The notes beneath the pieces were generated by a model, which was not told the origin of the DNA, ran no database searches, and worked only from the letters and a program-made list of their open reading frames with translations. A stretch of DNA of 21,777 bases, taken from a virus. Shown piece after piece: positions 233 to 20,756 of the stretch; positions within the stretch are counted from its first letter, which is position 1, and each line of letters begins with the position of its first letter. The stretch spans positions 1-21,777 of the IMG/VR virus record IMGVR_UViG_3300021957_000365; one strand, written 5' to 3'. The position numbers and the translations under genes were made by a program.

Positions 233-436
233 TTAGTCTGGTTGGACTATTCGGATATTTTTTACTTCTGTAGTAAAAATGTAGTTGGGGTCTTTGAGAG
301 TTACCCCGAGCTGGTTATTTAATTGTGGTACCGCTTTTGGTCCACTAATGACTTCGAAGTATTCTCCGTGTTCTGCTATAACCTTTCGCAGTTTATCATT
401 TCTAGGTAAAACTTTAGCATATCTCTTCATCATCAT
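233..436 (-). CDS. Small phage protein, unknown function (67 aa)
   Basis: This is the last gene of the minus-strand operon. Three ATG codons in a row begin at 436; a GGAG lies 4, 7 and 10 nt from them, so the second or third may be the one used. It overlaps the end of the upstream gene by about 23 nt, which suggests coupled translation. The N-terminus is basic (MKRYAKVLPRNDKLRK) and the rest looks like a small beta-rich fold. No domain is recognised. Confidence 0.65.
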   Translation of the reverse strand: MMMKRYAKVLPRNDKLRKVIAEHGEYFEVISGPKAVPQLNNQLGVTLKDPNYIFTTEVKNIRIVQPD

Positions 437-752
437 AATCTCCTTGTATTGCTTCTGCTAGTAGCTTGAGATCAGCCTTTGGCGATTTCTCTAGTCCTGC
501 AATCTTTTCAATTGGTAATTCCATTAGTTCTGCTATCATTTGCACTAATTCTTTTTTTGTTACTGGGTTCTCTCCAGTTTTGGTTTTATAGACAGTTTTC
601 TTATATACTCCTTCTCTCGCTAGTTTACCTATAATAGATTTTATACTCTTATCAAATTCTTCTGATAGTTTTTCTACTGTTTCTCTAGTCGGATTCTCAC
701 TATATAAAGTTACCATCTGGTTAACCTGTTCTTCTGTGTAATTTACACTCAT
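414..752 (-). CDS. HTH-like regulatory protein, paralogue of the gene at 5439-5744
   Basis: The 112-residue protein starts MSVNYTEEQVNQMV and shares a clear pattern with the protein at 5439-5744: NYTE near the N-terminus, then NPTR-[ED]-TV, then [SN]-[IV]-I-[GA]-KL-[AS]-REGVY near residue 48, and a C-terminal KADL-[KQ]-x-L motif. The NPTR...REGVY block looks like a helix-turn-helix that senses or binds DNA; this is inferred from the pattern, and I cannot name the family firmly. It overlaps the previous gene's stop by 4 nt. The C-terminal end is acidic (DYDDEE). Two diverged copies under different promoters suggest separately timed regulators. Confidence 0.75.
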   Translation of the reverse strand: MSVNYTEEQVNQMVTLYSENPTRETVEKLSEEFDKSIKSIIGKLAREGVYKKTVYKTKTGENPVTKKELVQMIAELMELPIEKIAGLEKSPKADLKLLAEAIQGDYDDEEIC

Positions 753-3586: not shown

Positions 3587-4201
3587 TTAGCTTAATAAAT
3601 CTACTATTTTTGTTAATAAGGACAGTCTACCTTGCGACTTTGTATTGTAATCTATACTGTGCCATTCGCCTAGCGTTGTATGAACTCGCTCTTTGAGAAG
3701 TGTCATTTGGTCGTACTTAGATAAAGCCAGTGCATCATTGGGTGAGAACTTCCACTTGGTTAGCGGGGATACTTGTCTGTTTCCTATACGGAATGACTGC
3801 TCCTCTTCACTTATGCTAAGCCATAGTTTGATGAATGTTACATCTTGCTTAGCTTCCCATTCAAGAACTGACGCCATGAAGTCTTCATACTGTTTATCTG
3901 TACACCAGCCGTTTAACTTCTGTACCATTGCTCTGCTATACCAACTTCTGTCGAAAAAGACCATTTGGTTGTCGCTAGGTAGTTTACGTTCCCATGACTC
4001 AAGCCAATTATTCATGTCCCATTCGCTCGGTTTACTACTAAGCGAGACTGAGTACTTACTTGTAGGAAGATAATGCGTTAGCTCACGGATAGTACCTGTC
4101 TTGCCCGCTGTGTCTCTTCCTTCTAGCACAACTGCAACTCTACCAAAATCTGTTTCTACTATTTTGTTAAGTTCAATTTGTTGTTGCTCTAATTTTGTCA
4201 T
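3587..4201 (-). CDS. PPK2-family polyphosphate kinase
   Basis: PPK2 enzymes transfer phosphate between polyphosphate and nucleotides, usually running toward NDP/NTP synthesis. The 204-residue protein has a Walker A loop GRDTAGKTGT (28-37, near the family's GRDAAGKGGT), a Walker B and arginine segment FFDRSWYSR (82-90), and a lid with SPLTKWKFSP (145-154). The C-terminal part contains the expected W-x-x-ID then RL-x-L arrangement. It is shorter than typical cellular PPK2 (about 230-300 residues). The first Gly after the P-loop Lys is Thr. It has its own promoter (4226-4254) and an AAGGA ribosome site. Whether it makes ADP, ATP, GDP or GTP cannot be read from the sequence. Confidence 0.88.
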   Translation of the reverse strand: MTKLEQQQIELNKIVETDFGRVAVVLEGRDTAGKTGTIRELTHYLPTSKYSVSLSSKPSEWDMNNWLESWERKLPSDNQMVFFDRSWYSRAMVQKLNGWCTDKQYEDFMASVLEWEAKQDVTFIKLWLSISEEEQSFRIGNRQVSPLTKWKFSPNDALALSKYDQMTLLKERVHTTLGEWHSIDYNTKSQGRLSLLTKIVDLLS

Positions 4202-4254: not shown

Positions 4255-4304
4255 GAAATTTTTTAAGATAATGTTGAAAATTTTGATCTGAATGATCGTG
4301 GGAT

Positions 4305-4332
4305 AAAAAAATGGGACACCGAAGTATCCCAT
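4305..4332 (-). terminator. Intrinsic terminator with UUCG loop
   Basis: Minus strand: a 9-bp stem ATGGGATAC / GTGTCCCAT (one G-T pair) closed by TTCG and followed by seven T. It ends the non-coding transcript that starts near 5205. Confidence 0.85.
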
Positions 4333-5205
4333 CCAAAGTTTTTGTATGTTTAAAGTGGTCGTGTCGGAATTACTCACGAACCTATCCACTGTTTGCATTA
4401 TTTAAAGTCCAAACGCTATTGACTATAAGGTATCTACTATTCAGTAGGCGACAGGGCGACTGCCATTCTCCTCACGCTTAGCTTTTATACTGTTCCAAGT
4501 CTGCAGTTTATCGTTATCATGTTAGTTGCCTACTGCCCCCCGATATCTATGATATCTCGCTCTCGCAGTATGCGGTGGGAAACATCACCTTTCCCTTGCC
4601 CGAGTTTGCTACTATTGACTGGTCGCTATGATATAAATATCTAGTCCGCCCGTGTCGCAGTAGATTGGTTTGCTACTTGTCGTTGTCCCAAAGGGTTAAC
4701 GAAAGCGTGGTTTCCTCACTCTAGATTGCTTGTCTGGTCATAAGCCACCCGTTCAATTACCTCTGCATTAGTAAAGCCGAAGCTCGTAACGTCCATTAAT
4801 GCAGTAAAACAAACCGATTTTATACTTTCGATAAAGTGCCGAGGACTCTTGGTTTTGTTATGCTCCCCTTATTGCCTTTGCTTTCGTACTAAGTACTAAG
4901 TTCGCAGGGCTTATCGGAAGTTTCTAACCTCACCTGTTTACGCATCAGTTCATGCGATTATGTCTCTCTCCTTACTGCGGAAGGTATCTCACATAATGAG
5001 TATCAAAAGCGGACATTCTTTACAGTTAACGCAATCTCACAATGTCTAAGGAGCATACGGCGTGTTTTAAGAGTCGCCACTCTAGGTAAGCAACTGAAGG
5101 ATTATTTATTCGCTATCCCTCCTCCGAAGAGTCTGGGGTCACTGCTAAATCATTAATTTTTTCCTTTACTCAGTTACTTTTATCTATAAGGATAATTTTT
5201 ATTAT
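4305..5205 (-). ncRNA. Candidate giant structured non-coding RNA, about 900 nt
   Basis: The stretch has a perfect promoter at 5212-5240 and an intrinsic terminator at 4305-4332. It holds no convincing gene on either strand. Its base composition is richer in G and C than its flanks. It folds into many local helices when read on the minus strand. Examples: CTGCATTA (4804-4797) with TAATGCAG (4770-4763), enclosing an AGC-UUCG-GCT hairpin; ATTATGT (4997-4991) with ACATAAT (4963-4957), enclosing CCTT/AAGG; CGCAT/ATGCG at 4956-4941; GATATC pairs at 4556-4542; GGGAAA/TTTCCC at 4595-4577. A longer-range helix pairs 4535-4528 with 4449-4442 (CAGTAGGC/GCCTACTG). Size, own transcription unit and phage context recall the GOLLD and ROOL RNA classes, but I cannot assign a family by eye. 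Confidence 0.72.
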
Positions 5206-5211
5206 GAATAT

Positions 5212-5240
5212 ATTATACTAACTTTGAAACCATTTGTCAA
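5212..5240 (-). promoter_or_regulatory. Consensus promoter of the large non-coding RNA
   Basis: Minus strand: TTGACA (5240-5235), 17-bp spacer, TATAAT (5217-5212). The predicted start is about 5205. From the -35 box to the -10 box it differs from the promoter at 5335-5363 by only two bases, so the two are recent duplicates. Confidence 0.88.
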
Positions 5241-5257
5241 GAAGAAATTTAAATTAT

Positions 5258-5302
5258 TTATCTTAACCTCTCTGGGCGGGAAGCTTGATGCCTTCGCATC
5301 AT
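5258..5302 (-). CDS. Possible 14-codon peptide upstream of the large RNA
   Basis: Downstream of the promoter at 5335 lies AGAAAGGGAAA, then ATGATG and 14 codons (MMRRHQASRPERLR) ending in TAA at 5258, just before the next promoter. A small hairpin (GATGC/GCATC around 5286-5299) overlaps its start. It may be a leader peptide, a small toxin-like ORF, or chance inside a short non-coding transcript. Confidence 0.25.
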   Translation of the reverse strand: MMRRHQASRPERLR

Positions 5303-5334
5303 TTTCCCTTTCTCTTGTTTTTCAATATAAATAT

Positions 5335-5363
5335 ATTATACTAACTTTACAACCATTTGTCAA
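5335..5363 (-). promoter_or_regulatory. Consensus promoter, near-copy of the one at 5212
   Basis: Minus strand: TTGACA (5363-5358), 17-bp spacer, TATAAT (5340-5335). It drives a short transcript into the 5258-5302 region and possibly on into the large RNA. Confidence 0.85.
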
Positions 5364-5438: not shown

Positions 5439-5744
5439 TTATGAGATTGTGTCGATCAATCTTTGGAGGTCAGCCTTGCTGGCTTTCACTAGGGAAGGAA
5501 ATTCTTGTCCCAATGTGTCCTGTATCTGAGCTAAGAGTTCTGCTTTTCTTACGATTGGCTCGCCTGATTTTGTTACTCTTGGCTGGGCTTGGTACACACC
5601 TTCTCTTGAAAGTTTCGCTATAACACTTCTTGTGTTTTTACCGAGTTCTCTTGCTAACGCGTCAACTGTATCTCTTGTTGGGTTAGCGTTGTATTCTGCA
5701 ATCATTTTCTCTGTCATTGCTTCTGTATAATTAGCTTGTGCCAT
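5439..5744 (-). CDS. HTH-like regulatory protein, paralogue of the gene at 414-752
   Basis: The start at 5744 (MAQANYTEAMTEKM, 101 aa) is chosen because AGGAGA lies about 9 nt upstream and because the paralogue begins at the same place (NYTE). A longer frame from 5798 begins almost exactly at the predicted transcription start, so a leaderless 119-residue form beginning MKKIINKIK is possible. Conserved positions shared with the 414-752 protein are NPTRDTVDALARELGK, then IAKLSREGVY, and a C-terminal KADLQRL. It is probably a DNA-binding regulator; this is inferred, not shown. Confidence 0.78.
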   Translation of the reverse strand: MAQANYTEAMTEKMIAEYNANPTRDTVDALARELGKNTRSVIAKLSREGVYQAQPRVTKSGEPIVRKAELLAQIQDTLGQEFPSLVKASKADLQRLIDTIS

Positions 5745-5807
5745 TGTGTTTTTTCTCCTAAATAGTAGTGTTTTTATTTTGTTTATAATCTTTTTCATAG
5801 TAAGAAT

Positions 5808-6415: not shown

Positions 6416-6440
6416 CTTTTTTCCTTTTTTTGATAAATAT

Positions 6441-6469
6441 ATTATACAGACTTTGTTTCTTCTTGTCAA
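6441..6469 (-). promoter_or_regulatory. Consensus promoter for the gene at 6068-6415
   Basis: Minus strand: TTGACA (6469-6464), 17-bp spacer, TATAAT (6446-6441). Confidence 0.87.
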
Positions 6470-6597
6470 GAACTATTTTAGATTATTACTCATAAAATAA
6501 CGCAAACGAATACTCGGGGGCCGGACGCGAAACCACCCATCTATCGTGGCAAATCTCCGAAAAACGCTAAATTTCTCCATAAATTTGCCCAAAGCTA

Positions 6598-6626
6598 TTG
6601 ACAACCCCGCATAAGTCTGATATACT
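6598..6626 (+). promoter_or_regulatory. Promoter-like sequence facing a non-coding stretch
   Basis: TTGACA (6598-6603), 17-bp spacer, TATACT (6621-6626), followed by GGGAGGGAAAGGGG but no start codon. Nothing coding is seen on the plus strand from 6627 to 6889. It may make a short RNA or be a remnant. Confidence 0.5.
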
Positions 6627-9187: not shown

Positions 9188-9376
9188 ATGAAAAATAAAT
9201 TAAAAGAAAAATTAAAAAGTATGAACAATGCAAGATTAGTTTTAGCAGTCATCCGCTTAAATAGTCTAGCAGATGTGCCTTTTAGTGATCCTACATATAC
9301 AGGAGCAATGCCTAAGCAGTACGCCATGAATAGAGCAAAATTATTAGCATATAAAGGCATGGAAGGCGTTAAATAA
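9188..9376 (+). CDS. Small protein A of a duplicated pair (62 aa)
   Basis: The start at 9188 has GGAG 7 nt upstream. Protein A begins MKNKLKEKLKSMNNARLVLA and shares a clear pattern with the protein at 9490: a basic N-terminus, RL-x-LA-[IV]-x-R, L-x-D-x-PF, Y-x-G-x-MP and a C-terminal [SK]-LA-x-KGM. The shape, a basic helix, a PF...G-x-MP turn and another helix, is not one I can name. The gene is a single unit between two promoters. The two copies probably arose by duplication together with their promoters. Confidence 0.75.
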   Translation: MKNKLKEKLKSMNNARLVLAVIRLNSLADVPFSDPTYTGAMPKQYAMNRAKLLAYKGMEGVK

Positions 9377-9489: not shown

Positions 9490-9672
9490 ATGAAAAATTT
9501 AAAATTAATGAAAAACAAGAGATTGGCTCTTGCTATTAAAAGAGCAGAAGCTCTTAGAGATTGCCCTTTTGAGGGTGGTGTATATGTTGGCGATATGCCA
9601 ATAGAATTTAAAATAGCTAAGGCTAGATCTTTAGCAATCAAAGGCATGCAAATGCAAGGAGGTGCTAAATGA
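9490..9672 (+). CDS. Small protein B of a duplicated pair (60 aa)
   Basis: Begins MKNLKLMKNKRLALAIKRAE and is the paralogue of the 9188 protein (shared RL-x-LA, L-x-D-CPF/VPF, Y-x-G-x-MP, LA-x-KGM). Here the PF is preceded by Cys (DCPF). The ribosome site is AAGGAG. It heads an operon with the acidic protein (ATGA overlap) and the Cys-rich peptide, under the phased operator array. Function unknown. Confidence 0.75.
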   Translation: MKNLKLMKNKRLALAIKRAEALRDCPFEGGVYVGDMPIEFKIAKARSLAIKGMQMQGGAK

Positions 9673-10550: not shown

Positions 10551-13500
10551 ATGGTTTTTAAAAAACTATTCCTTGGAGTATTTGCTTTCGCTTTCCTAGC
10601 GTTACCAGCATTTGCCCAAGAAACAACCTCCGCTATTAGAGGCACCATAATTGGAGCTTCTGGAGCAGGAGTATCAGGAGCATCAGTCTCCATAACCCAC
10701 GAACCTTCTGGTTCAATCTCCACCCAAACCACTAATGAAAACGGAATCTTTCTAGCACGGAACTTACGTGTTGGCGGGCCGTATTTTATAAAAGTTACTG
10801 GTGTAGGTGGAACTGCAAAAATGGACAACATTTTCTTAGAACTTTCAGATACTAAAAAAGTATCACTAGTTCTTTCACAGTCATCACAAGTTGATGATCT
10901 AGTTGTTGTCGGGCAGAAAATAAATACAAAAGGTCTAATTACAGGACCTAGAAGTACTTTATCCTCTGATCAAATTGGAGATATAGCAAGTGTAAATAGA
11001 GATCTAAAAGACGCAGTTGCAACTCAACCATTTGTCAATGTATATAGTATTTCATTTAATGGCGACGACACTGAAAGTATTAGTATAGCAGGAACAAATG
11101 CTAGATATAGTTCTTTCCAGGTTGATGGTATTGGCCAATCAGATGACTTCGGTCTAGAATATGGCGGATATCCTGGAGTCAAATCTCCACTATCACTTGA
11201 CTCTGTAGAGCAAGTATCAGTTAGTGTTGTAGACTATGACGTAAGAGATTCCGGTTCAACAGCAGGTGTTATTAACGTTGTTACTAAATCAGGTACTAAC
11301 GAGTTTTCTGGATCTGTATACGGATTCAAAACTGGCGATAGCTGGGTTGGTGACGAAATCGACGGACAAAAACAAACTATTGGCGAATTTGACGAAGATG
11401 TTAAAGGATTCACACTAGGCGGTCCAATCATAAAAGATAAACTATTCTTTTTCGCAAACTGGGATAAGTTCCAAAAAACAGAACCAGGACTATGGGGTGC
11501 TGCTGGCAGTGGCTCATTACTCGAAGTAGATGACGTATCTTTAGAAGATGCCCAGAGAGTTATCAATATAACAAATGATGTATATGGATATGACGCTGGT
11601 TTAGCTACTGGTATGAACAATTCTTTACTAGATGAAGATGTTCTACTAAAACTTGACTGGAATATAAATGACTCACATAGAGCAACATTTACTCACCAAG
11701 CATCAGAAAATAATGACGTAAGAGAGTACGGCGGTTCAAATTCTACTTTAGCACTAACAAGTGGTAACTACATAAAGACTACTGACTTGACTGCAAACAG
11801 CTTCCAGGTCTTTAGTGACTGGACAGACGAACTATCAACAACATTTAGATATGGAGATAGATTAGTAGAAACATCACAGGCTAGTGTCGGTGGTAATGAC
11901 TTCATGAGAGCAGTCGTAGAGTTAGGGGGAGGAAACCAAGGACCACAGATTCTTGTAGGACCTGATGCCTTCAGACATTACAACTTCTTAGAGACACAAT
12001 CAACTGAGATGGAATTCGAAGTTTCATACTTACTTGGTGCTCATGAATTAGTTGCTGGTTTTGGCACTAACAGTATAGACGTTGCAAATGGTTTTGTACC
12101 ATATTCTGACGGTGTACTTGAGTATGCTACTATTGAAGACTATGAAAATAGAACTCCATACGCAATTGACTACAGAAACTCACCAAGTGGCGACCCCGCT
12201 GACGGTGCAGCTTTCTTTGAAATCAAAACAACAAGTTTCTTTTTACAAGATACTTGGGATTATAGTGACAGACTTACACTACAATACGGTGTAAGGTATG
12301 AAAAACTATCTATGGATGATACTCCAAGGTATAACGAAACTTTGGAAGGATACTATGGAATTAAAAATAATGTAAACTTAGACGGTAAAGATGTATTTTT
12401 ACCAAGAGTAAGTTTCACTTATGATGCTGACGACTTTAGTGTATTTAGAGACGTAAGATTCAGAGGTGGAGCAGGTTACTTCACAGGTGGCAGACCAAAT
12501 GTTTGGATGGGCGGTACTTTCAGTAATGACGGTATTGGTATTCAAAATGCGAACGTTCCTGTAGAAGCAGCACTAGGTTTCGATGGATTTGATACTTCTG
12601 TATTTGATTCTTACATTTACCAGCCAGGACAAGAAGGATTCAAACCAGCGTTTGCTGATATACTAGATCCTGAGTTCGAATTACCAAGAGAGCTTAAGTT
12701 CTCTGTAGGTATGGATTGGGTAATGGGCGATGAGTACTACTTTAGTGCAGATTTGCTTATGACGAAAACTGACAAAGACTTACACTTTAAACAGCTAAGA
12801 GTAGGTAACCCAGCATTTGGTGGCGCAGTAGATTGTCCTGAAATTGATAACTATGTAACTAACGAGCCAATCGGTGTAGGACCAGACGGCAGATTAATTT
12901 ATGCTGACTATGGAATATGCGGAAAAGCAATGGAAAGATTCATTGACTACAGAGGCTACGACATGTTACTTACAAATACAGACAAAGGCGAAAGCCAACT
13001 GTTTGCACTTTCCTTAAGTAAAGAGTTTGAGAATGGATTTGATTTTTACACTAACTACACATGGCAGAATGTTGATACTGTAGGTAATTTAACTTCAAGC
13101 AGAAATATCTCTAACTTTAAATACACAACTAAGTATGAGGACTTTAATAACGATGTCTTACATAGATCTGTATATGAAAGAGAGCATTCCTTTACTTTTG
13201 TAGGTAACTACACAGCTAATTGGTTTAAAAATGCTCCAACAAGATTCTCATTTATAGCAGGTGCTGTAAGTGGAGAACCTTTCTCATATACTCTAGGTCA
13301 ATACAAGGACGGAGCTTTATGGGGTCTTGACAGAGAATCAGCAAGAGATGAAACAGCAGCTTTCTATGTTCCTAACGGATCTGGTACTGATGTTATCATT
13401 CCTGACTGGTTTGCTGAAGACTACAACGCTTATATAGCTGCGGCTGGACTAGAAGCATACGCTGGAGGCTTTGCCCCAATTAATGGCTTTGAGACTGACT

Positions 13501-13814
13501 GGAATTATACTTTAGACTTTAAACTTACTCAGGAATTACCTGGTTTAGGTTTAACAAGCAAAGACAAGTTCTTGGTAACTTTAGATGTTCAAAACCTATT
13601 GAATCTACTTGATAGTGATTTAGGAAAGCAGACTAAAGCAGCAAGAAGTGCTAGAAGCATCGCTGAAGCAGTACCAGTTAACAACGGCGACGGTACATTT
13701 AGTTACGAATATAAATCTGCATACGGCATGAACATTGATAGAGTTGATAATCAAAACACCAACTACTATAGAAGTTTATATCGCATACAATTAGGATTTA
13801 AATACATATTCTAA
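10551..13814 (+). CDS. Oar-like TonB-dependent outer-membrane receptor
   Basis: The 1087-residue protein has a signal peptide (MVFKKLFLGVFAFAF...PAFA, cleaved near 22/23) and a carboxypeptidase-regulatory-like beta domain (about 27-105, starting SAIRGTIIGASGAGVSGASV). A TonB-box-like DDLVVVG follows near 114-120, then a plug domain (about 125-260). The plug contains the block typical of Oar-type receptors: FQVDGIGQSDDFGLEYGGYP, SLDSVEQVSV and GVINVVTKSGTNEFSGSVYG. The remainder is a 22-strand-type barrel ending in an aromatic (KYIF). Length fits Oar proteins (about 1000-1100). These receptors import or export ligands across the outer membrane using host TonB; the ligand is unknown. The gene has its own promoter and terminator and sits beside phage packaging genes, like a moron gene. 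Confidence 0.88.
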   Translation: MVFKKLFLGVFAFAFLALPAFAQETTSAIRGTIIGASGAGVSGASVSITHEPSGSISTQTTNENGIFLARNLRVGGPYFIKVTGVGGTAKMDNIFLELSDTKKVSLVLSQSSQVDDLVVVGQKINTKGLITGPRSTLSSDQIGDIASVNRDLKDAVATQPFVNVYSISFNGDDTESISIAGTNARYSSFQVDGIGQSDDFGLEYGGYPGVKSPLSLDSVEQVSVSVVDYDVRDSGSTAGVINVVTKSGTNEFSGSVYGFKTGDSWVGDEIDGQKQTIGEFDEDVKGFTLGGPIIKDKLFFFANWDKFQKTEPGLWGAAGSGSLLEVDDVSLEDAQRVINITNDVYGYDAGLATGMNNSLLDEDVLLKLDWNINDSHRATFTHQASENNDVREYGGSNSTLALTSGNYIKTTDLTANSFQVFSDWTDELSTTFRYGDRLVETSQASVGGNDFMRAVVELGGGNQGPQILVGPDAFRHYNFLETQSTEMEFEVSYLLGAHELVAGFGTNSIDVANGFVPYSDGVLEYATIEDYENRTPYAIDYRNSPSGDPADGAAFFEIKTTSFFLQDTWDYSDRLTLQYGVRYEKLSMDDTPRYNETLEGYYGIKNNVNLDGKDVFLPRVSFTYDADDFSVFRDVRFRGGAGYFTGGRPNVWMGGTFSNDGIGIQNANVPVEAALGFDGFDTSVFDSYIYQPGQEGFKPAFADILDPEFELPRELKFSVGMDWVMGDEYYFSADLLMTKTDKDLHFKQLRVGNPAFGGAVDCPEIDNYVTNEPIGVGPDGRLIYADYGICGKAMERFIDYRGYDMLLTNTDKGESQLFALSLSKEFENGFDFYTNYTWQNVDTVGNLTSSRNISNFKYTTKYEDFNNDVLHRSVYEREHSFTFVGNYTANWFKNAPTRFSFIAGAVSGEPFSYTLGQYKDGALWGLDRESARDETAAFYVPNGSGTDVIIPDWFAEDYNAYIAAAGLEAYAGGFAPINGFETDWNYTLDFKLTQELPGLGLTSKDKFLVTLDVQNLLNLLDSDLGKQTKAARSARSIAEAVPVNNGDGTFSYEYKSAYGMNIDRVDNQNTNYYRSLYRIQLGFKYIF

Positions 13815-15108: not shown

Positions 15109-15610
15109 GCCTGTTTTAATACTAATAATAGTATGTTCCTTATTTATTTATACACAAAGCACTATAGCAGCAGAGTTAGTACATAAGTTTGGCTCTCCAA
15201 GTTTTAGTGGGATTAATCAATCCGCACACTATTTAACAATTGATGAACAAGAAAGAACAAGAAAAGCAGAACTGGCCCAGAAAGCACAGGACGCTCTCGA
15301 TGAAGCCCAAAGAGAAGCAGACAATACTACTCTTGCTAAATTTTTAAGAAACTTAGAATCAAGAATCTACTCTACACTTGCAAAAGATATATCAGAATCT
15401 CTTTTTGATTACACAAATCCTGGAACACTTGAAAATCCTGTAACTGGAGAAATCTGGTTAGAAGGAAACAGAATAATCTGGACAAACAATGGAGTCTCTA
15501 TCACTCTCGTAGTCGAAGAATGGTTAGACGGAGTATTAATATCAACAACAACTATCGAAATACCTGTTGGAAGCTTTGGAGGATGTTTTAGTGATTGCGC
15601 GACTGGTTAG
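15077..15610 (+). CDS. csgF: CsgF-like curli assembly factor
   Basis: CsgF binds the CsgG pore and helps anchor and nucleate curli outside the cell. The 177-residue protein has a signal peptide (hydrophobic 12-30, cleaved near AA/E at 32/33). The CsgF N-terminal pattern follows: ELVHKFGSPSFSGINQSAHY compared with E. coli [20 protein letters not shown]. Then comes a Lys/Glu/Ala-rich helix (about 58-85), the helix FLRNLESRIYSTLAKDISES and a two-strand C-terminal part (IWLEGNRIIW...ITLVVEEW). It is longer than E. coli CsgF (138 aa) and ends with an unusual CFSDC. The gene overlaps the preceding one by 32 nt and csgG by 20 nt. Confidence 0.85.
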   Translation: MRKRDLLKGNEPVLILIIVCSLFIYTQSTIAAELVHKFGSPSFSGINQSAHYLTIDEQERTRKAELAQKAQDALDEAQREADNTTLAKFLRNLESRIYSTLAKDISESLFDYTNPGTLENPVTGEIWLEGNRIIWTNNGVSITLVVEEWLDGVLISTTTIEIPVGSFGGCFSDCATG

Positions 15611-16472
15611 TGTACTACTACTTACTGGATGTGCTTCATTTGGAGTTCAACAGGATAACTGCTATAGATTTGAAGAAGGCTTTGGAAAAGATGTAGTAAC
15701 TGGAGTAGCAAAAGCAGGTACGAACAAGATGGTATGTAAGACAGGCCCCGTAATACAACCAAGTGCTACTCAGCAATTACTCAACTTACCTTATCCAAAT
15801 CAAAAGACAATTGTAGCAGTATACAACTTCGGGGATAATACAGGCCAAAGAAAAGCCAGAGATGGTATCGCTGATTTTTCTACTGCAGTAACACAAGGAG
15901 CCCATCATATCTTAATTGAAGCTCTGAGAGACGCAGGAAAAGGAAACTGGTTTGTAGTTGTAGAGAGAACTGGACTTGATGCTTTGACAAAAGAAAGACA
16001 ACTTGTAAGAAGTACTTTTGAAGCTTACAACAAGGGAGCAGATGGAAAAACAATTTTAAAACCACTACTATACGCAGGAATGATTATAGAAGGTGGTATC
16101 GTTAGTTATGATACTAATGTAAGAACTGGTGGTAGCGGTGCTCGATACTTAGGTATCGGTATGAAGAATCAATATCGTGAAGACGTCGTTACAGTAACAT
16201 TAAGAGCTGTATTAGTTCAAACGGGGGAAGTCTTGTTAAATGTTACAACCACAAAAACTATACTATCTACTGGAGGTGGAGGCGATGTATTCAGGTTCAT
16301 AGAACTTGGTACAGAACTCGTAGAAATCGAAAGTGGTAGTACAGAGAACGAGGCTGTTAGCCAAGCCGTAAGAGCTGCTATTGAAGCGGCGGTATTTGGC
16401 TTAGTTATGCAGGGACTCGAAAAAGAGGTTTGGGATTTTAATTACCCAAGCCTGGGAGAAAACAATGAATAA
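15591..16472 (+). CDS. csgG: CsgG-like curli secretion pore lipoprotein
   Basis: CsgG forms a nonameric outer-membrane channel for curlin subunits. The GTG at 15591 is preferred (GGAGG 8 nt upstream). It gives 293 residues with lipobox LTGC at 11-14; a TTG 24 nt upstream has no good ribosome site. Family blocks are plain: IVAVYNFGDNTGQRK, DFSTAVTQ, WFVVVERTGLDAL-x-KER, YAGMIIEGGIVSYDTNV, GGSGARYLGIG, and the transmembrane hairpin region through VTTTKTIL and VFRFIEL. The eyelet loop differs from E. coli: the Y51/N55/F56 positions read as a non-Tyr residue, Asp and Phe, with a one-residue insertion. No CsgE is visible in the window. Confidence 0.92.
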   Translation: MIARLVSVLLLTGCASFGVQQDNCYRFEEGFGKDVVTGVAKAGTNKMVCKTGPVIQPSATQQLLNLPYPNQKTIVAVYNFGDNTGQRKARDGIADFSTAVTQGAHHILIEALRDAGKGNWFVVVERTGLDALTKERQLVRSTFEAYNKGADGKTILKPLLYAGMIIEGGIVSYDTNVRTGGSGARYLGIGMKNQYREDVVTVTLRAVLVQTGEVLLNVTTTKTILSTGGGGDVFRFIELGTELVEIESGSTENEAVSQAVRAAIEAAVFGLVMQGLEKEVWDFNYPSLGENNE

Positions 16473-17142
16473 GATAATTGGACTATTCGCGATATGTCTA
16501 TCTCTTACAGCGTTTGCGGGTAATAATGATTTATATATTACTCAAACAGGTACAGGACTTACACTTACTATTGATCAAATAGGTGCTACTAACACAGTTG
16601 GTAAATCCGACAGTAGAGCAACTTTGTCAGGTACTTCAATGACAGTAGACATAGACCAGATTGGTGATACTAATACTTTTTTGGCTTCGCTACTTCAAGG
16701 CAACTCATCTAGTTGGACTTATAAAGTCACCGGTGATAGTAACACTGCTACTTTAGCAGGTGGTGCTACAGGAGACATTGCTAGTTCTGACTTTGATTAT
16801 ATTACAGTTGGAGACAGTAACAGTCTTACTTGGACTCAAGGTGCTGCAGCAACAGCTACTGGAGCAAATACTGACTTTACTATAACAGGAACTTCAAATG
16901 CCATAGCAGGTACTTGTGAAGTTGTGGGTTGTATAAATGCTTGGACTATTAGTGGAAATAGTAATAATATTACTACTACTCAGACAGGTTCTGCGGATCA
17001 TCAGATCACAGCTACTTTGACTGGAAGTTCTAATACTGTAACTATTGACCAAACTGATACTGCAAGTACAAACGTTGCTAACATAATATCTACCACATCA
17101 AATGGTACTATTAATGTAGACCAATGCGCATCTGGCTGCTAA
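16465..17142 (+). CDS. Curlin-like amyloid subunit 1
   Basis: The 225-residue protein has a signal peptide (MNKIIGLFAICLSLTAFAG) and then imperfect curlin repeats with the [ILV]-x-[ILV]-x-Q-x-G-x-x-N signature. Examples are LTIDQIGATN, VDIDQIGDTN, ITTTQTGSADH and VTIDQTDTAS. Some units between are degenerate and rich in Thr, Ser, Asn and Gly. It should be a CsgG substrate that stacks as a beta-solenoid fibre. It has two Cys pairs (CEVVGC near 152-157 and CASGC at the end), which E. coli CsgA lacks. The start has GGGAGA and overlaps csgG by 8 nt; the last 19 nt overlap the FecR-domain gene. Confidence 0.85.
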   Translation: MNKIIGLFAICLSLTAFAGNNDLYITQTGTGLTLTIDQIGATNTVGKSDSRATLSGTSMTVDIDQIGDTNTFLASLLQGNSSSWTYKVTGDSNTATLAGGATGDIASSDFDYITVGDSNSLTWTQGAAATATGANTDFTITGTSNAIAGTCEVVGCINAWTISGNSNNITTTQTGSADHQITATLTGSSNTVTIDQTDTASTNVANIISTTSNGTINVDQCASGC

Positions 17143-18221
17143 TACTATTTAGTATTCCAGCCTTTACGACAGAAATCGGAGAGATATCTGAACTACGAGG
17201 CAATGGAGAGATTACTAGAGTAAACTCTACTAACTCTTTTACTGCTGAAATAGATTCAGATATCTTCTCATTCGACGATGTAAGAACTGGAAACGGTAGA
17301 CTTGCAATTGAATTTTTAGACTCATCTATAGTAAAACTTACAGAACACTCAAAGTTAATTATAGACGAGTACATTTATGATCCAGACCCTGCAAAGAGTA
17401 AAATGGCTCTTAACATGGCATCTGGAACAGCTCGATTTATTTCGGGAGCTTTTGGAAAAATTAATAAAGAAAATATAACAATTAATACTCCAACAGCAAC
17501 TATCGGTATTCGTGGTACAGATTTTACAACAACTGTAGACGAATTAGGCAGAAGTTTAGTTATACTACTACCAGATGAGAATGGAGACTCCTCAGGAGAG
17601 ATAACAGTAACAACTGCAGCAGGAGTAGAGATACTCAACGAAGCTTTTCAAGCAACAATGGTTTCAGCATGGGAACAACCACCCACACAAGCCGTAACCT
17701 TAGCAAACATAACACTTGGAATGATTGACAATATGTTGATTGTCCAAAGACCTGAAGAAGTCGAACAAGCAGTAGAAGAACAACAATCGGGCGTGTCACC
17801 TACTGCAGATTTAGACAAAGACTTCTTTGAAGATGCACCAGATTTAGATTGTGATGCTCTAATAGAAGACTGTGGAGAAGATGAAGAAGTCACAAGACTA
17901 GACATTGATTTACTGAGTGTAGAGTTTCTTGTAGATTTACTAGCATTGGTAGAGACTACAAGCAAAAAAAGAGGACAAACTTCACAATTAAACGGAGTAG
18001 AGCTTGAAGGTATAATAGCAGGTTTTGACCCTGTATACCAAACTTACACTTTCGTAGAAGAAGGATTAATTTACTTTGTACACGAAGGACAAAACAACTA
18101 CGACATAGGTATCGATACAAATGCAGGTACTTATCTATATATAGACAATGCAGGAGTAATATTGGAGGTAAATATAAATGGTGCGGGTGATAACGTTATT
18201 ATTATTAATCAGTCCCCTTAG
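17124..18221 (+). CDS. FecR-domain periplasmic protein
   Basis: The 365-residue protein starts with a signal peptide (MRIWLLILFSIPAFT). A FecR domain (about 17-185) carries IGEISELRGNGEITR, FDDVRTGNGRLAIEFLDSS, VKLTEHSKLIIDEYIYDP, ASGTARFISG and TPTATIGIRGTDFTT. In iron uptake FecR passes a receptor signal to a sigma factor, but stand-alone FecR-domain proteins without a sigma partner, like this one, often lie beside CHASE2 cyclases. A strongly acidic linker (about 215-255, including DCDALIEDC) leads to a C-terminal beta segment. That segment ends with curlin-like YDIGIDTNAG and NINGAGDNVIIINQ units. No good Shine-Dalgarno is seen; translation is probably coupled to the curlin gene it overlaps. 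Confidence 0.85.
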   Translation: MRIWLLILFSIPAFTTEIGEISELRGNGEITRVNSTNSFTAEIDSDIFSFDDVRTGNGRLAIEFLDSSIVKLTEHSKLIIDEYIYDPDPAKSKMALNMASGTARFISGAFGKINKENITINTPTATIGIRGTDFTTTVDELGRSLVILLPDENGDSSGEITVTTAAGVEILNEAFQATMVSAWEQPPTQAVTLANITLGMIDNMLIVQRPEEVEQAVEEQQSGVSPTADLDKDFFEDAPDLDCDALIEDCGEDEEVTRLDIDLLSVEFLVDLLALVETTSKKRGQTSQLNGVELEGIIAGFDPVYQTYTFVEEGLIYFVHEGQNNYDIGIDTNAGTYLYIDNAGVILEVNINGAGDNVIIINQSP

Positions 18222-18972
18222 TTTTGCTGGGGATAACTCTACTACGATTATTACAAAAGGAACCAACAATCAAATTACTACTAAACAGATAGGTAATGGT
18301 AACACTACTACTATTCTTTGTGGAGCAAATTCAGGAGGAACTATAACAGGAGCTACTTACTCTTCTCATAGCTGCACAAATGCTACATGGAGCAGTACTG
18401 TAACGGGCAATAGTAATACAGTTAAGATGTATACTGTATGGTCAAATAATATAGGAAACTCTTCTACTGTAACTATAGACGGTAATGATAACTATGCATA
18501 CATTGACCAAGATGAAGATGATAACACAGTAACCGTTACTCAAACAGGAAATGATAACCATTCAGAATCATTAGGCTCAGGAGACGATAATGTTTATTCA
18601 ACGACTCAAACAGGAAACAATAAATATAGCAAAATATTCTTTTTCGGTGATGATTCTGATATTACTGTTAATCAGTATGGGACTGGCCAACATAATTCTT
18701 ATATTTATGGAAACGGCGGTGCGCACAATAACTCGGTAAGTGTTACTCAGTATGGTAGTGGTAACAAAGATGCAGATATATTTTTTTACAACTCTGATAA
18801 TGAAGTAGACTTAACACAATATGGAACAGGAGCTCACGTAGCAAATATGAAATTCTATACAACAGGCTATGATGTAGATGTAACTCAACTTGGAGCTACA
18901 AATCAAACATATACTGCAACTTTTAATTGTACAGCAGATTGTACAAAAACAATATCTATTACACAACAATGA
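18178..18972 (+). CDS. Curlin-like amyloid subunit 2
   Basis: The 264-residue protein has a signal peptide (MVRVITLLLLISPLSFAG) and about eight curlin-type repeats with a strong Q-x-G register: TTKQIGNGN, VTVTQTGNDN, STTQTGNNK, ITVNQYGTGQHN, VSVTQYGSGNK, VDLTQYGTGAH, VDVTQLGATN. These QYG units are closer to the E. coli CsgA pattern than those of subunit 1. A C-terminal CTADC lies 9 residues from the end. The ATG has GGAGG upstream and overlaps the FecR gene by 44 nt. Two unlike curlins suggest a major and a nucleating subunit, but which is which is unclear. Confidence 0.88.
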   Translation: MVRVITLLLLISPLSFAGDNSTTIITKGTNNQITTKQIGNGNTTTILCGANSGGTITGATYSSHSCTNATWSSTVTGNSNTVKMYTVWSNNIGNSSTVTIDGNDNYAYIDQDEDDNTVTVTQTGNDNHSESLGSGDDNVYSTTQTGNNKYSKIFFFGDDSDITVNQYGTGQHNSYIYGNGGAHNNSVSVTQYGSGNKDADIFFYNSDNEVDLTQYGTGAHVANMKFYTTGYDVDVTQLGATNQTYTATFNCTADCTKTISITQQ

Positions 18973-20756
18973 GCAAACTAATAAATCCTTTTATTTTTAT
19001 ATTTTCACTTGGACTCCTAATCTGGAATCCTTCCCCTTTTCAAATACTGGAACTCAAGACATTTGACTATATTATGTCTACTACTCCAGAAATACAAAAC
19101 GAAAACATACTTCTTGTTGATCTCGATGAAGAGATAGTAGAAGCCTACGGAGGTTATCCACTACCAAGAAGCCTATTCGCAAGCATGATAGACATGACAT
19201 CGGGTGTTCCCGGTTTTACGATTCTCATGCCCGATCCCGACTTACGCGGTATTGAGTACGACAACACACTTGCCTACTCACTATCAAATAAACCAAGTGT
19301 TTTAGCTTATGCAGCTTCAACACAGGCATCAAAAGCAGGGCCTCATGTAGGCACAGCTCAACTAGGAGGTGACCCAAAAGAATGGCTATTCAACTATCCC
19401 GGAATTTTAAGACAACTACCAAAGTTACAAGTAACAGCAGAAGGCGTGGGACTAATAAACTCAAGCCCAGAAGTAGACGGAGTCGTACGAAGACTTCCCG
19501 TAGTCGTAAGTAGCCAGGAAGGATTATATCCCTCTTTTGCGTTAGAGATGTTGAGAGTTGGTGTCGGTGATCCAAGTTATCAAATTAAGACAAGCGAAGG
19601 TGTAGAATGGGTACGTATACCAAATTATCCACTTATACATACGGACGCAAACGCAAGAGTATGGATTCAACAAAATGTTAAATTCTATAGACAAACTGCA
19701 GCAGAGTACATGGAGAATCCTATACCTGCTCCCTTTGTTATCTTTGGAGTAACTGCCGAAGGTGTAACCAATCCCGTGCCTACAGCACAAGGAGCAGTAT
19801 ACCCTCATGAAATTCAAGCAAACGTACTTCATTCACTTATAGAAGGAAACAGCCCATCCATCCCGACATGGAGTGTAGCAGTAGAGCTGGGAGCCGCCCT
19901 TCTGGCTCTACTATTACTTTGGATTACAGCATCTCGTATATGGCTGTCACTTCCAGTCTTACTACTTACTATTGGAGGACTTATATACTTTGCCCTGGAA
20001 ATGTACAAATCTTCCTACTTACTTGACGTTTCTGGCACTATTTTAGTCGGGTTTTTATTCTGGAGCATCATAACTTTCAGGAATTTCATTACGCAGTTTT
20101 TGTTGAGATTGCAAATCAAACAACAATTCGGGACGTACGTAAGTCCGGACTTAGTAAAAAAATTACAAGAGGACCCAACATTGCTGAGACTGGGTGGGTC
20201 GACAGAACGACTTACTTTTCTTTTTTCAGATATTCGAGGATTCACACCAATTTCAGAAAAATATCAAAAGAATCCACAAGGTCTTACCAAACTTATAAAC
20301 AGGTTTTTAGATAACCAAACTGAGATAATATTAAAACACGGAGGAACCATCGACAAATATATGGGTGACTGTATTATGGCATTTTGGGGTGCTCCTCTAC
20401 CAGATAATAAGCATGAAGAAAATGCAACAAAAGCTGCTATCGAAATGAGAATAGCACTAGGAGAATTAAATGAAACACTTAGAGAAGAGGGCCTTGACCA
20501 AATTAATACAGGAGCTGGCATCAATACGGGAGACTGTGTGGTGGGCAACTTTGGTAGTAGTACTCGCTTTGACTATTCCGTTTTGGGTGATGCTGTTAAT
20601 CTCGCTGCCCGACTAGAATCGAGCTGTAAGAACTATGACGTAGACCTCGTCATATCCGAGCACAGTTTAGTTGATGGTTACGACTATAAATTTTTAGATG
20701 AAGTTACAGTAAAAGGAAAGACCGAGCCAGTTAAAATATATACCATCGAAAAATAA
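18969..20756 (+). CDS. CHASE2-domain class III adenylate cyclase
   Basis: The start at 18969 (MSKLINPFIFIF, 595 aa) overlaps the curlin stop by ATGA. The order is: membrane anchor (about 6-20), extracytoplasmic CHASE2 sensor (about 25-310, with ILLVDLDEE and GGYPLPRS), three membrane spans (about 318-390), and a class III cyclase domain (about 415-590). Catalytic residues are present. The metal Asp are Asp421 in FSDIRGFT and Asp467 in IDKYMGD. The adenine-selecting Lys and Asp are Lys463 and Asp535 (FDYSVLG), and the transition-state Asn and Arg are Asn544 and Arg548 (NLAAR). It should make cAMP in the host cytoplasm in response to an envelope signal. It is the last gene of the curli operon and probably works with the FecR protein. 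Confidence 0.9.
   Translation: MSKLINPFIFIFSLGLLIWNPSPFQILELKTFDYIMSTTPEIQNENILLVDLDEEIVEAYGGYPLPRSLFASMIDMTSGVPGFTILMPDPDLRGIEYDNTLAYSLSNKPSVLAYAASTQASKAGPHVGTAQLGGDPKEWLFNYPGILRQLPKLQVTAEGVGLINSSPEVDGVVRRLPVVVSSQEGLYPSFALEMLRVGVGDPSYQIKTSEGVEWVRIPNYPLIHTDANARVWIQQNVKFYRQTAAEYMENPIPAPFVIFGVTAEGVTNPVPTAQGAVYPHEIQANVLHSLIEGNSPSIPTWSVAVELGAALLALLLLWITASRIWLSLPVLLLTIGGLIYFALEMYKSSYLLDVSGTILVGFLFWSIITFRNFITQFLLRLQIKQQFGTYVSPDLVKKLQEDPTLLRLGGSTERLTFLFSDIRGFTPISEKYQKNPQGLTKLINRFLDNQTEIILKHGGTIDKYMGDCIMAFWGAPLPDNKHEENATKAAIEMRIALGELNETLREEGLDQINTGAGINTGDCVVGNFGSSTRFDYSVLGDAVNLAARLESSCKNYDVDLVISEHSLVDGYDYKFLDEVTVKGKTEPVKIYTIEK

Follow-up and report, generated by a model that had tools for sequence, protein, structure and literature searches.

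The window, namely the whole stretch of 21,777 nucleotides of viral DNA analysed here (IMG/VR record IMGVR_UViG_3300021957_000365), carries on its minus strand, between a gene for a small DNA-binding-like protein and one for polyphosphate kinase 2 (PPK2), a segment that almost certainly encodes a giant structured RNA (5205-4303). The locus is composed of the following features.

5439-5798, minus strand: conserved upstream neighbour, a 119-aa small DNA-binding-like protein (weak matches to phrog_1725 and phrog_323)
5335-5363, minus strand: second promoter copy, in tandem upstream, 95 nt from the first
5212-5240, minus strand: sigma70-type promoter TTGACA-N17-TATAAT, matching the consensus at 12 of 12 positions
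4303-5205, minus strand: giant structured noncoding RNA of ~900 nt, the 5' start being placed from the -10 box
4303-4334, minus strand: intrinsic terminator with an 11-bp stem, a UUCG loop and then T7

The perfect promoter and the UUCG-loop terminator, both of which had been described in a sequence-only reading of this DNA, were thus confirmed. In the family of related loci, furthermore, a TTGAC..TATAAT-type promoter lies immediately 5' of the RNA at all of the 86 loci retaining the 5' end, and a T-run follows the RNA at 95 of the 101 loci retaining the 3' end. Perfect TTGACA-N17-TATAAT sites occur six times on the minus strand between 3000 and 7000; therefore, the promoter appears to be the ordinary strong one of the phage and not peculiar to the RNA element. 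No terminator was seen between the tandem promoters (5363-5335 and 5240-5212), and the ~95 nt separating them (5241-5335) contain a hairpin, UGAUGC-GAAG-GCAUCA, together with AAUAAAU as at the 5' end of the giant RNA; this segment may itself yield a small RNA or may lengthen the giant RNA at its 5' end.

The absence of a plausible gene from these ~900 nt, as had also been claimed, is borne out by the stop codons (20-28 in each sense frame), by the longest sense ORF across 27 relatives (mostly 26-60 aa, with two at 75 and 102 aa) and by the short indels in these relatives, 122 out of 659 of which are divisible by three. A mini-ORF, AUG-AUU-UAG, is found at ~5153 beside a Shine-Dalgarno-like stretch and resembles the bar minigenes of lambda. 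It was nonetheless rejected as coding, because its codons change among the relatives (AUG-UUC-CAG, AUG-GUU-UAG or AUG-AUU-GAG) while the hairpin is retained.

Elsewhere in the window, we noticed a curli-like gene set on this phage contig at 15567-20756: a CsgG gene (15567-16472; Pfam E-value of 1.5e-54), proteins with repeats that on visual inspection look like those of curlins (16465-17142 and 18178-18972) and a CHASE2-adenylate cyclase gene (18927-20756). Also, a gene for a 1087-aa outer membrane protein like TonB-dependent receptors (10551-13814), which is an unusual cargo for a phage, adjoins the gene of the small terminase subunit, and two tandem small proteins (9188-9376 and 9490-9672) that look paralogous (MKN..RLxLAxxR..) are encoded in a gene-poor stretch.

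Relatives and genomic place

A search of IMG/VR, for which both flanking proteins and conserved strings of the RNA were taken as queries, gave 124 loci matching the RNA profiles on ~95 distinct uncultivated phage contigs (counted by hand). These can be categorized into three groups: namely, group A, to which the window belongs (RNAs of ~0.9-1.1 kb), and the more divergent groups B (1.1-1.2 kb) and C (~0.6-1.0 kb). The loci that were read share one order, in which the 119-aa gene is followed by the TTGACA..TATAAT promoter, the RNA and the terminator with its T-run. Exactly one copy of the RNA is present on each of seven contigs (13-104 kb), and four of the seven have a T5-like small terminase subunit gene in the opposite orientation ~5-7 kb from the RNA, the distance in the window being ~8.7 kb. 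Across many related marine phages, the RNA occupies the same syntenic position. The PPK2 gene is common in these phages and does not always adjoin the RNA.

The group-B loci that were read have an equivalent of the tandem upstream promoter, and a counterpart of the segment between the two promoters is present in this group. In group B, we noticed that a further hairpin-rich and apparently noncoding stretch separates the neighbour gene from the first promoter (positions 6440-6620 of locus L057; also L062, L066, L070 and L073).

For the 5' domain, a covariance model (R1) was built from group A only, and it matches group B with E-values of ~1e-18 to 1e-10 and several members of group C with ~1e-8 to 1e-5. 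R1 gave no match in four of the 11 long records tested, including group-C members recognised by the sequence profile only, and none in a stretch of phage ICP1 (NC_015157, 72000-112000) or in unrelated control contigs. Groups B and C have in common the core string AUUGANSCGUAGAU..AUCUCG, which also served as a search pattern. Among the isolate phages of the collection searched, no relative of group A, B or C was found by DNA or by the neighbour protein, and no match to the neighbour protein was found in plasmids. Bacterial genomes gave six pattern matches, and the sole family member among them (L261) is a 4.4-kb phage contig that had been assigned to a Flavobacteriaceae MAG and that has the neighbour gene (117 aa); this would be either a possible hint of the host or a mis-binning. 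The leader pattern TATATTCAGAAACAAA was also tried as a probe and set aside, its matches in the collection being mostly chance ones in AT-rich sequence.

Covariation and the parts of the RNA

The folding energy of the single sequence is ordinary when compared with shuffles (z of -0.91), and one sequence is hence insufficient to reveal the structure; the case rests on the relatives. In 44 family RNAs, which are mutually related so that the counts are not independent, CUUCGG was found 114 times against 4.0 expected, in keeping with the many hairpins, several having UUCG-type loops, noticed in the single sequence, and GUAGYAAA was found 23 times against 4.2 expected (at 4676 and 4612 in the window).

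When 27 distinct group-A RNAs were aligned and scored with a model of 112 pairs, 89.8% of the cells were paired, as opposed to 36-46% with the partners slid by 1-3 columns, a comparison favouring the model to some extent because it was partly derived from the same 27 sequences. With the same advantage, 58 pairs (13-21 slid) and 310 cells (18-42 slid) were changed on both sides, and the covariation score was 0.296 (0.03-0.06 slid). None of 500 shuffles matched the model on four measures and two did on the fifth. Ten stems with at least two covarying pairs came out of a blind scan, and three column-permuted controls gave no such stem; for group B alone, a small set, a stem scan remained within the range of its controls (26 against 11-26). 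Furthermore, 11 canonical pairs exceeded every null value in a tree-based test, for which we used our own short implementation with 30 simulations. Alignments across the variable 3' half are unreliable. Conserved G-U pairs (columns 1284/1296, GU in 25; 581/592, GU in 25; 117/163, UG in 17) indicate that the RNA of the minus strand is the selected molecule. The proposal of a giant structured RNA that has a promoter and a terminator to itself is strongly supported by the covariation and the absent coding capacity. In the one long-range helix that the earlier reading had singled out (4535-4528 with 4449-4442), 41.3% of the cells are paired against 41.5% in shuffles. The 8-base complementarity does exist in the window sequence but is not conserved, and this helix was rejected; the strand 4536-4528 pairs locally with 4573-4565 in the window sequence and in some relatives, within a stretch that is variable family-wide.

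From 5' to 3', the RNA is composed of the following parts.

5083-5187, minus strand: 5' domain (model R1, built on group A and finding B and C)
5179-5170/5097-5088 and 5165-5162/5101-5098, minus strand: outer helices of the 5' domain
5150-5144/5113-5108, minus strand: inner hairpin of the 5' domain with bulged A5146
5071-5082, minus strand: hairpin GAGU-GGCG-ACUC; 3 of 4 pairs covary
5012-5059, minus strand: H-type pseudoknot, first stem 5059-5056/5033-5030 plus 5053-5051/5038-5036
5046-5042/5016-5012, minus strand: second stem of the pseudoknot, involving the loop strand 5046-5042; 97% paired, 4 of 5 pairs covary
4957-4997, minus strand: hairpin with inner stem 4984-4981/4973-4970 and outer stem 4997-4991/4963-4957
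4941-4956, minus strand: hairpin CGCAU-GAACUG-AUGCG, swapping to CCGAU..GUCGG
4842-4935, minus strand: long-range helix 4935-4933/4844-4842; 3 of 3 pairs covary, 97.5% paired
4817-4837, minus strand: hairpin 4837-4833/4828-4824; covariation between 4832 in its loop and 4817
4763-4804, minus strand: hairpin 4804-4797/4770-4763; 6 of 8 pairs covary, 99.5% paired
4785-4774, minus strand: UUCG hairpin inside the preceding one (112-pair model)
4704-4720, minus strand: invariant hairpin with a bulged A and a GAAA tetraloop, GUG-A-G[GAAA]C-CAC (from the sequence)
4510-4700, minus strand: mosaic variable region, modules exchanged among relatives
4476-4507, minus strand: movable pseudoknot module ACUG..CUUGG..CAGU..CUAAG, 4507-4504/4492-4489 plus 4499-4495/4481-4477
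4450-4464, minus strand: hairpin GGCAG-UCGCC-CUGUC; 97.7% paired
4359-4379, minus strand: 3' hairpin UCGUG..CACGA; 4 of 5 pairs covary, 100% paired

In the hairpin at 5071-5082, both sides switch together to give GUGA..UCAC or GACU..AGUC, and in the outer stem 4997-4991/4963-4957 all seven pairs change on both sides and remain 100% paired. The H-type pseudoknot, in which 5046-5042 pairs with 5016-5012 across 5059-5051/5038-5030, is supported. The long-range helix 4935-4933/4844-4842, likewise supported, closes an internal domain of variable content, and the covariation between 4832 and 4817, a tertiary pair, is reached by no null value. The 16-base core of the hairpin at 4704-4720 is identical in nine of nine aligned relatives, and covariation thus cannot be scored there. 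The helices in 4700-4510 (helices 17-19 of the model) are 33-57% paired over the whole set, and the local stems 4595-4590/4582-4577 and 4573-4565/4536-4528 are present in part of the family only, because this region is a mosaic of exchanged modules. The module at 4476-4507 shows one compensatory change, from ACUG/CAGU to AGUG/CACU.

Comparison with known large RNAs

A search of Rfam at gathering thresholds with the window and 16 related loci gave no family matches. At permissive thresholds, nothing convincing was found for the window or for loci L057 and L022, and the best matches were short or AT-rich chance ones (e.g., CrcZ, scoring 19.3 bits where the cut-off is 95). The models of GOLLD, ROOL and OLE, against which the RNA was to be checked, were thus all unmatched, and tRNA genes were absent from the window and from the family loci scanned. 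The resemblance to GOLLD and ROOL suggested earlier stands in size and phage setting but extends neither to the Rfam models nor to nearby tRNAs.

GOLLD is a giant RNA of phages and prophages that forms a 14-mer cage and is frequently, while not universally, close to tRNAs; ROOL, like the RNA described here, is not known to have a protein partner. OLE RNA is about 600 nt long and belongs to extremophilic bacteria. The phage RNAs GOLLD and ROOL are both comparable in size to the one described here; they form cages and often lie near tRNAs (PMC12286853). Like GOLLD, the window RNA is phage-borne, ornate and longer than 800 nt, with one part conserved and another variable, but it differs in having neither an Rfam model match nor nearby tRNAs; also, GOLLD keeps its 3' region (PMC12286853), whereas the window RNA conserves the 5' and middle parts and varies in the 3' half. 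ROOL (rumen-originating, ornate, large) is likewise phage-borne, large and pseudoknotted, while the window RNA is longer and has neither an Rfam match nor a tRNA island. OLE RNA is similarly large and ornate, but its Rfam model is unmatched here. The closest in setting is a noncoding RNA of ~800 nt in phage ICP1, which is the most abundant phage transcript and sits in an ORF-less gap of ~1 kb away from tRNAs (PMC7567579); phage-borne, in an ORF-less gap and without tRNAs like the window RNA, it nonetheless shows no detectable similarity to the latter by sequence profile or by the covariance model of the 5' domain.

With its covarying helices, no ORF, and its own promoter and terminator, the window RNA has the features of the giant structured phage RNA kind, and it is a new family among the giant ornate phage RNAs. 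No description of this family was found in a limited search of open-access papers.

Possible roles of the RNA

Judging from the promoter type, the host RNA polymerase would synthesize the RNA, probably early after infection and in large amount. The transcript would then fold into a rigid body with UUCG- or GAAA-capped hairpins, pseudoknots and one long-range closing helix, in which the conserved 5' and middle domains may represent a shared body and the exchangeable modules of the 3' half its variable outer parts. By analogy, the folded RNA might work as a structure itself, most likely as a GOLLD/ROOL-like particle or scaffold that associates with itself, and we lean slightly toward such a host-made, rigid RNA acting as a structural body. 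That the assembly is mainly of RNA only, rather than a scaffold for protein, is suggested more tentatively.

The main rival to self-assembly is that the giant RNA would serve protein as a scaffold or decoy, binding or sequestering a protein of the phage or of the host without assembling by itself; we consider this rather unlikely, but the sequence does not separate the two. OLE RNA, which works with Oap proteins, is a model for such a role. The gene just upstream across the family loci encodes a small DNA-binding-like protein, so that a protein partner may be encoded next door, and unpaired stretches that do not vary, of which AAUAAAUAA behind the first hairpin is one, could be protein sites. 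The upstream protein is, however, only weakly predicted to bind DNA, and these phages have a second paralogue of it elsewhere, which in the window (414-752) has no such RNA adjoining it.

It is very improbable that the RNA acts as an attenuator or long untranslated leader regulating the PPK2 gene (3587-4201): this gene is indeed the next one downstream on the same strand in the window, but the RNA stops at a strong terminator, a separate perfect promoter (4254-4226) serves PPK2, and groups B and C have other genes after the RNA, with PPK2 elsewhere or not found on the locus. Equally little can be said for the hairpins functioning in single-stranded DNA, e.g., as a replication origin or packaging site with an incidental transcript; that each phage has one conserved copy, close to the gene of the small terminase subunit, would fit, whereas the retention of strand-specific G-U pairs, the promoter and terminator kept in practically all relatives, and a structure extending over 900 nt would not. 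An intron or a decayed protein gene, for which size alone speaks, is virtually excluded by stops in every sense frame, indels that are not in threes, pair-restoring changes (the covariation refuting it as a general account), no match to group I/II introns in Rfam, and a promoter and terminator in place of exons.

Returning to the RNA as a structural body, we put forward with more reserve that it may represent a superfamily of giant RNAs that has not been described before and that nearly all members of a large group of uncultivated, T5-like marine phages would carry. Such RNAs may form a particle of their own kind, made of RNA only, whose outer modules are interchangeable and whose function is unlike that of GOLLD and ROOL. 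Very few RNA families attain such size and complexity, and the present one is an unrelated new family that shows strong covariation, has diverged into three groups and keeps a fixed place in the genome. It makes the question of whether giant RNA particles are a recurrent strategy of phages directly testable and is a ready target for structural studies.
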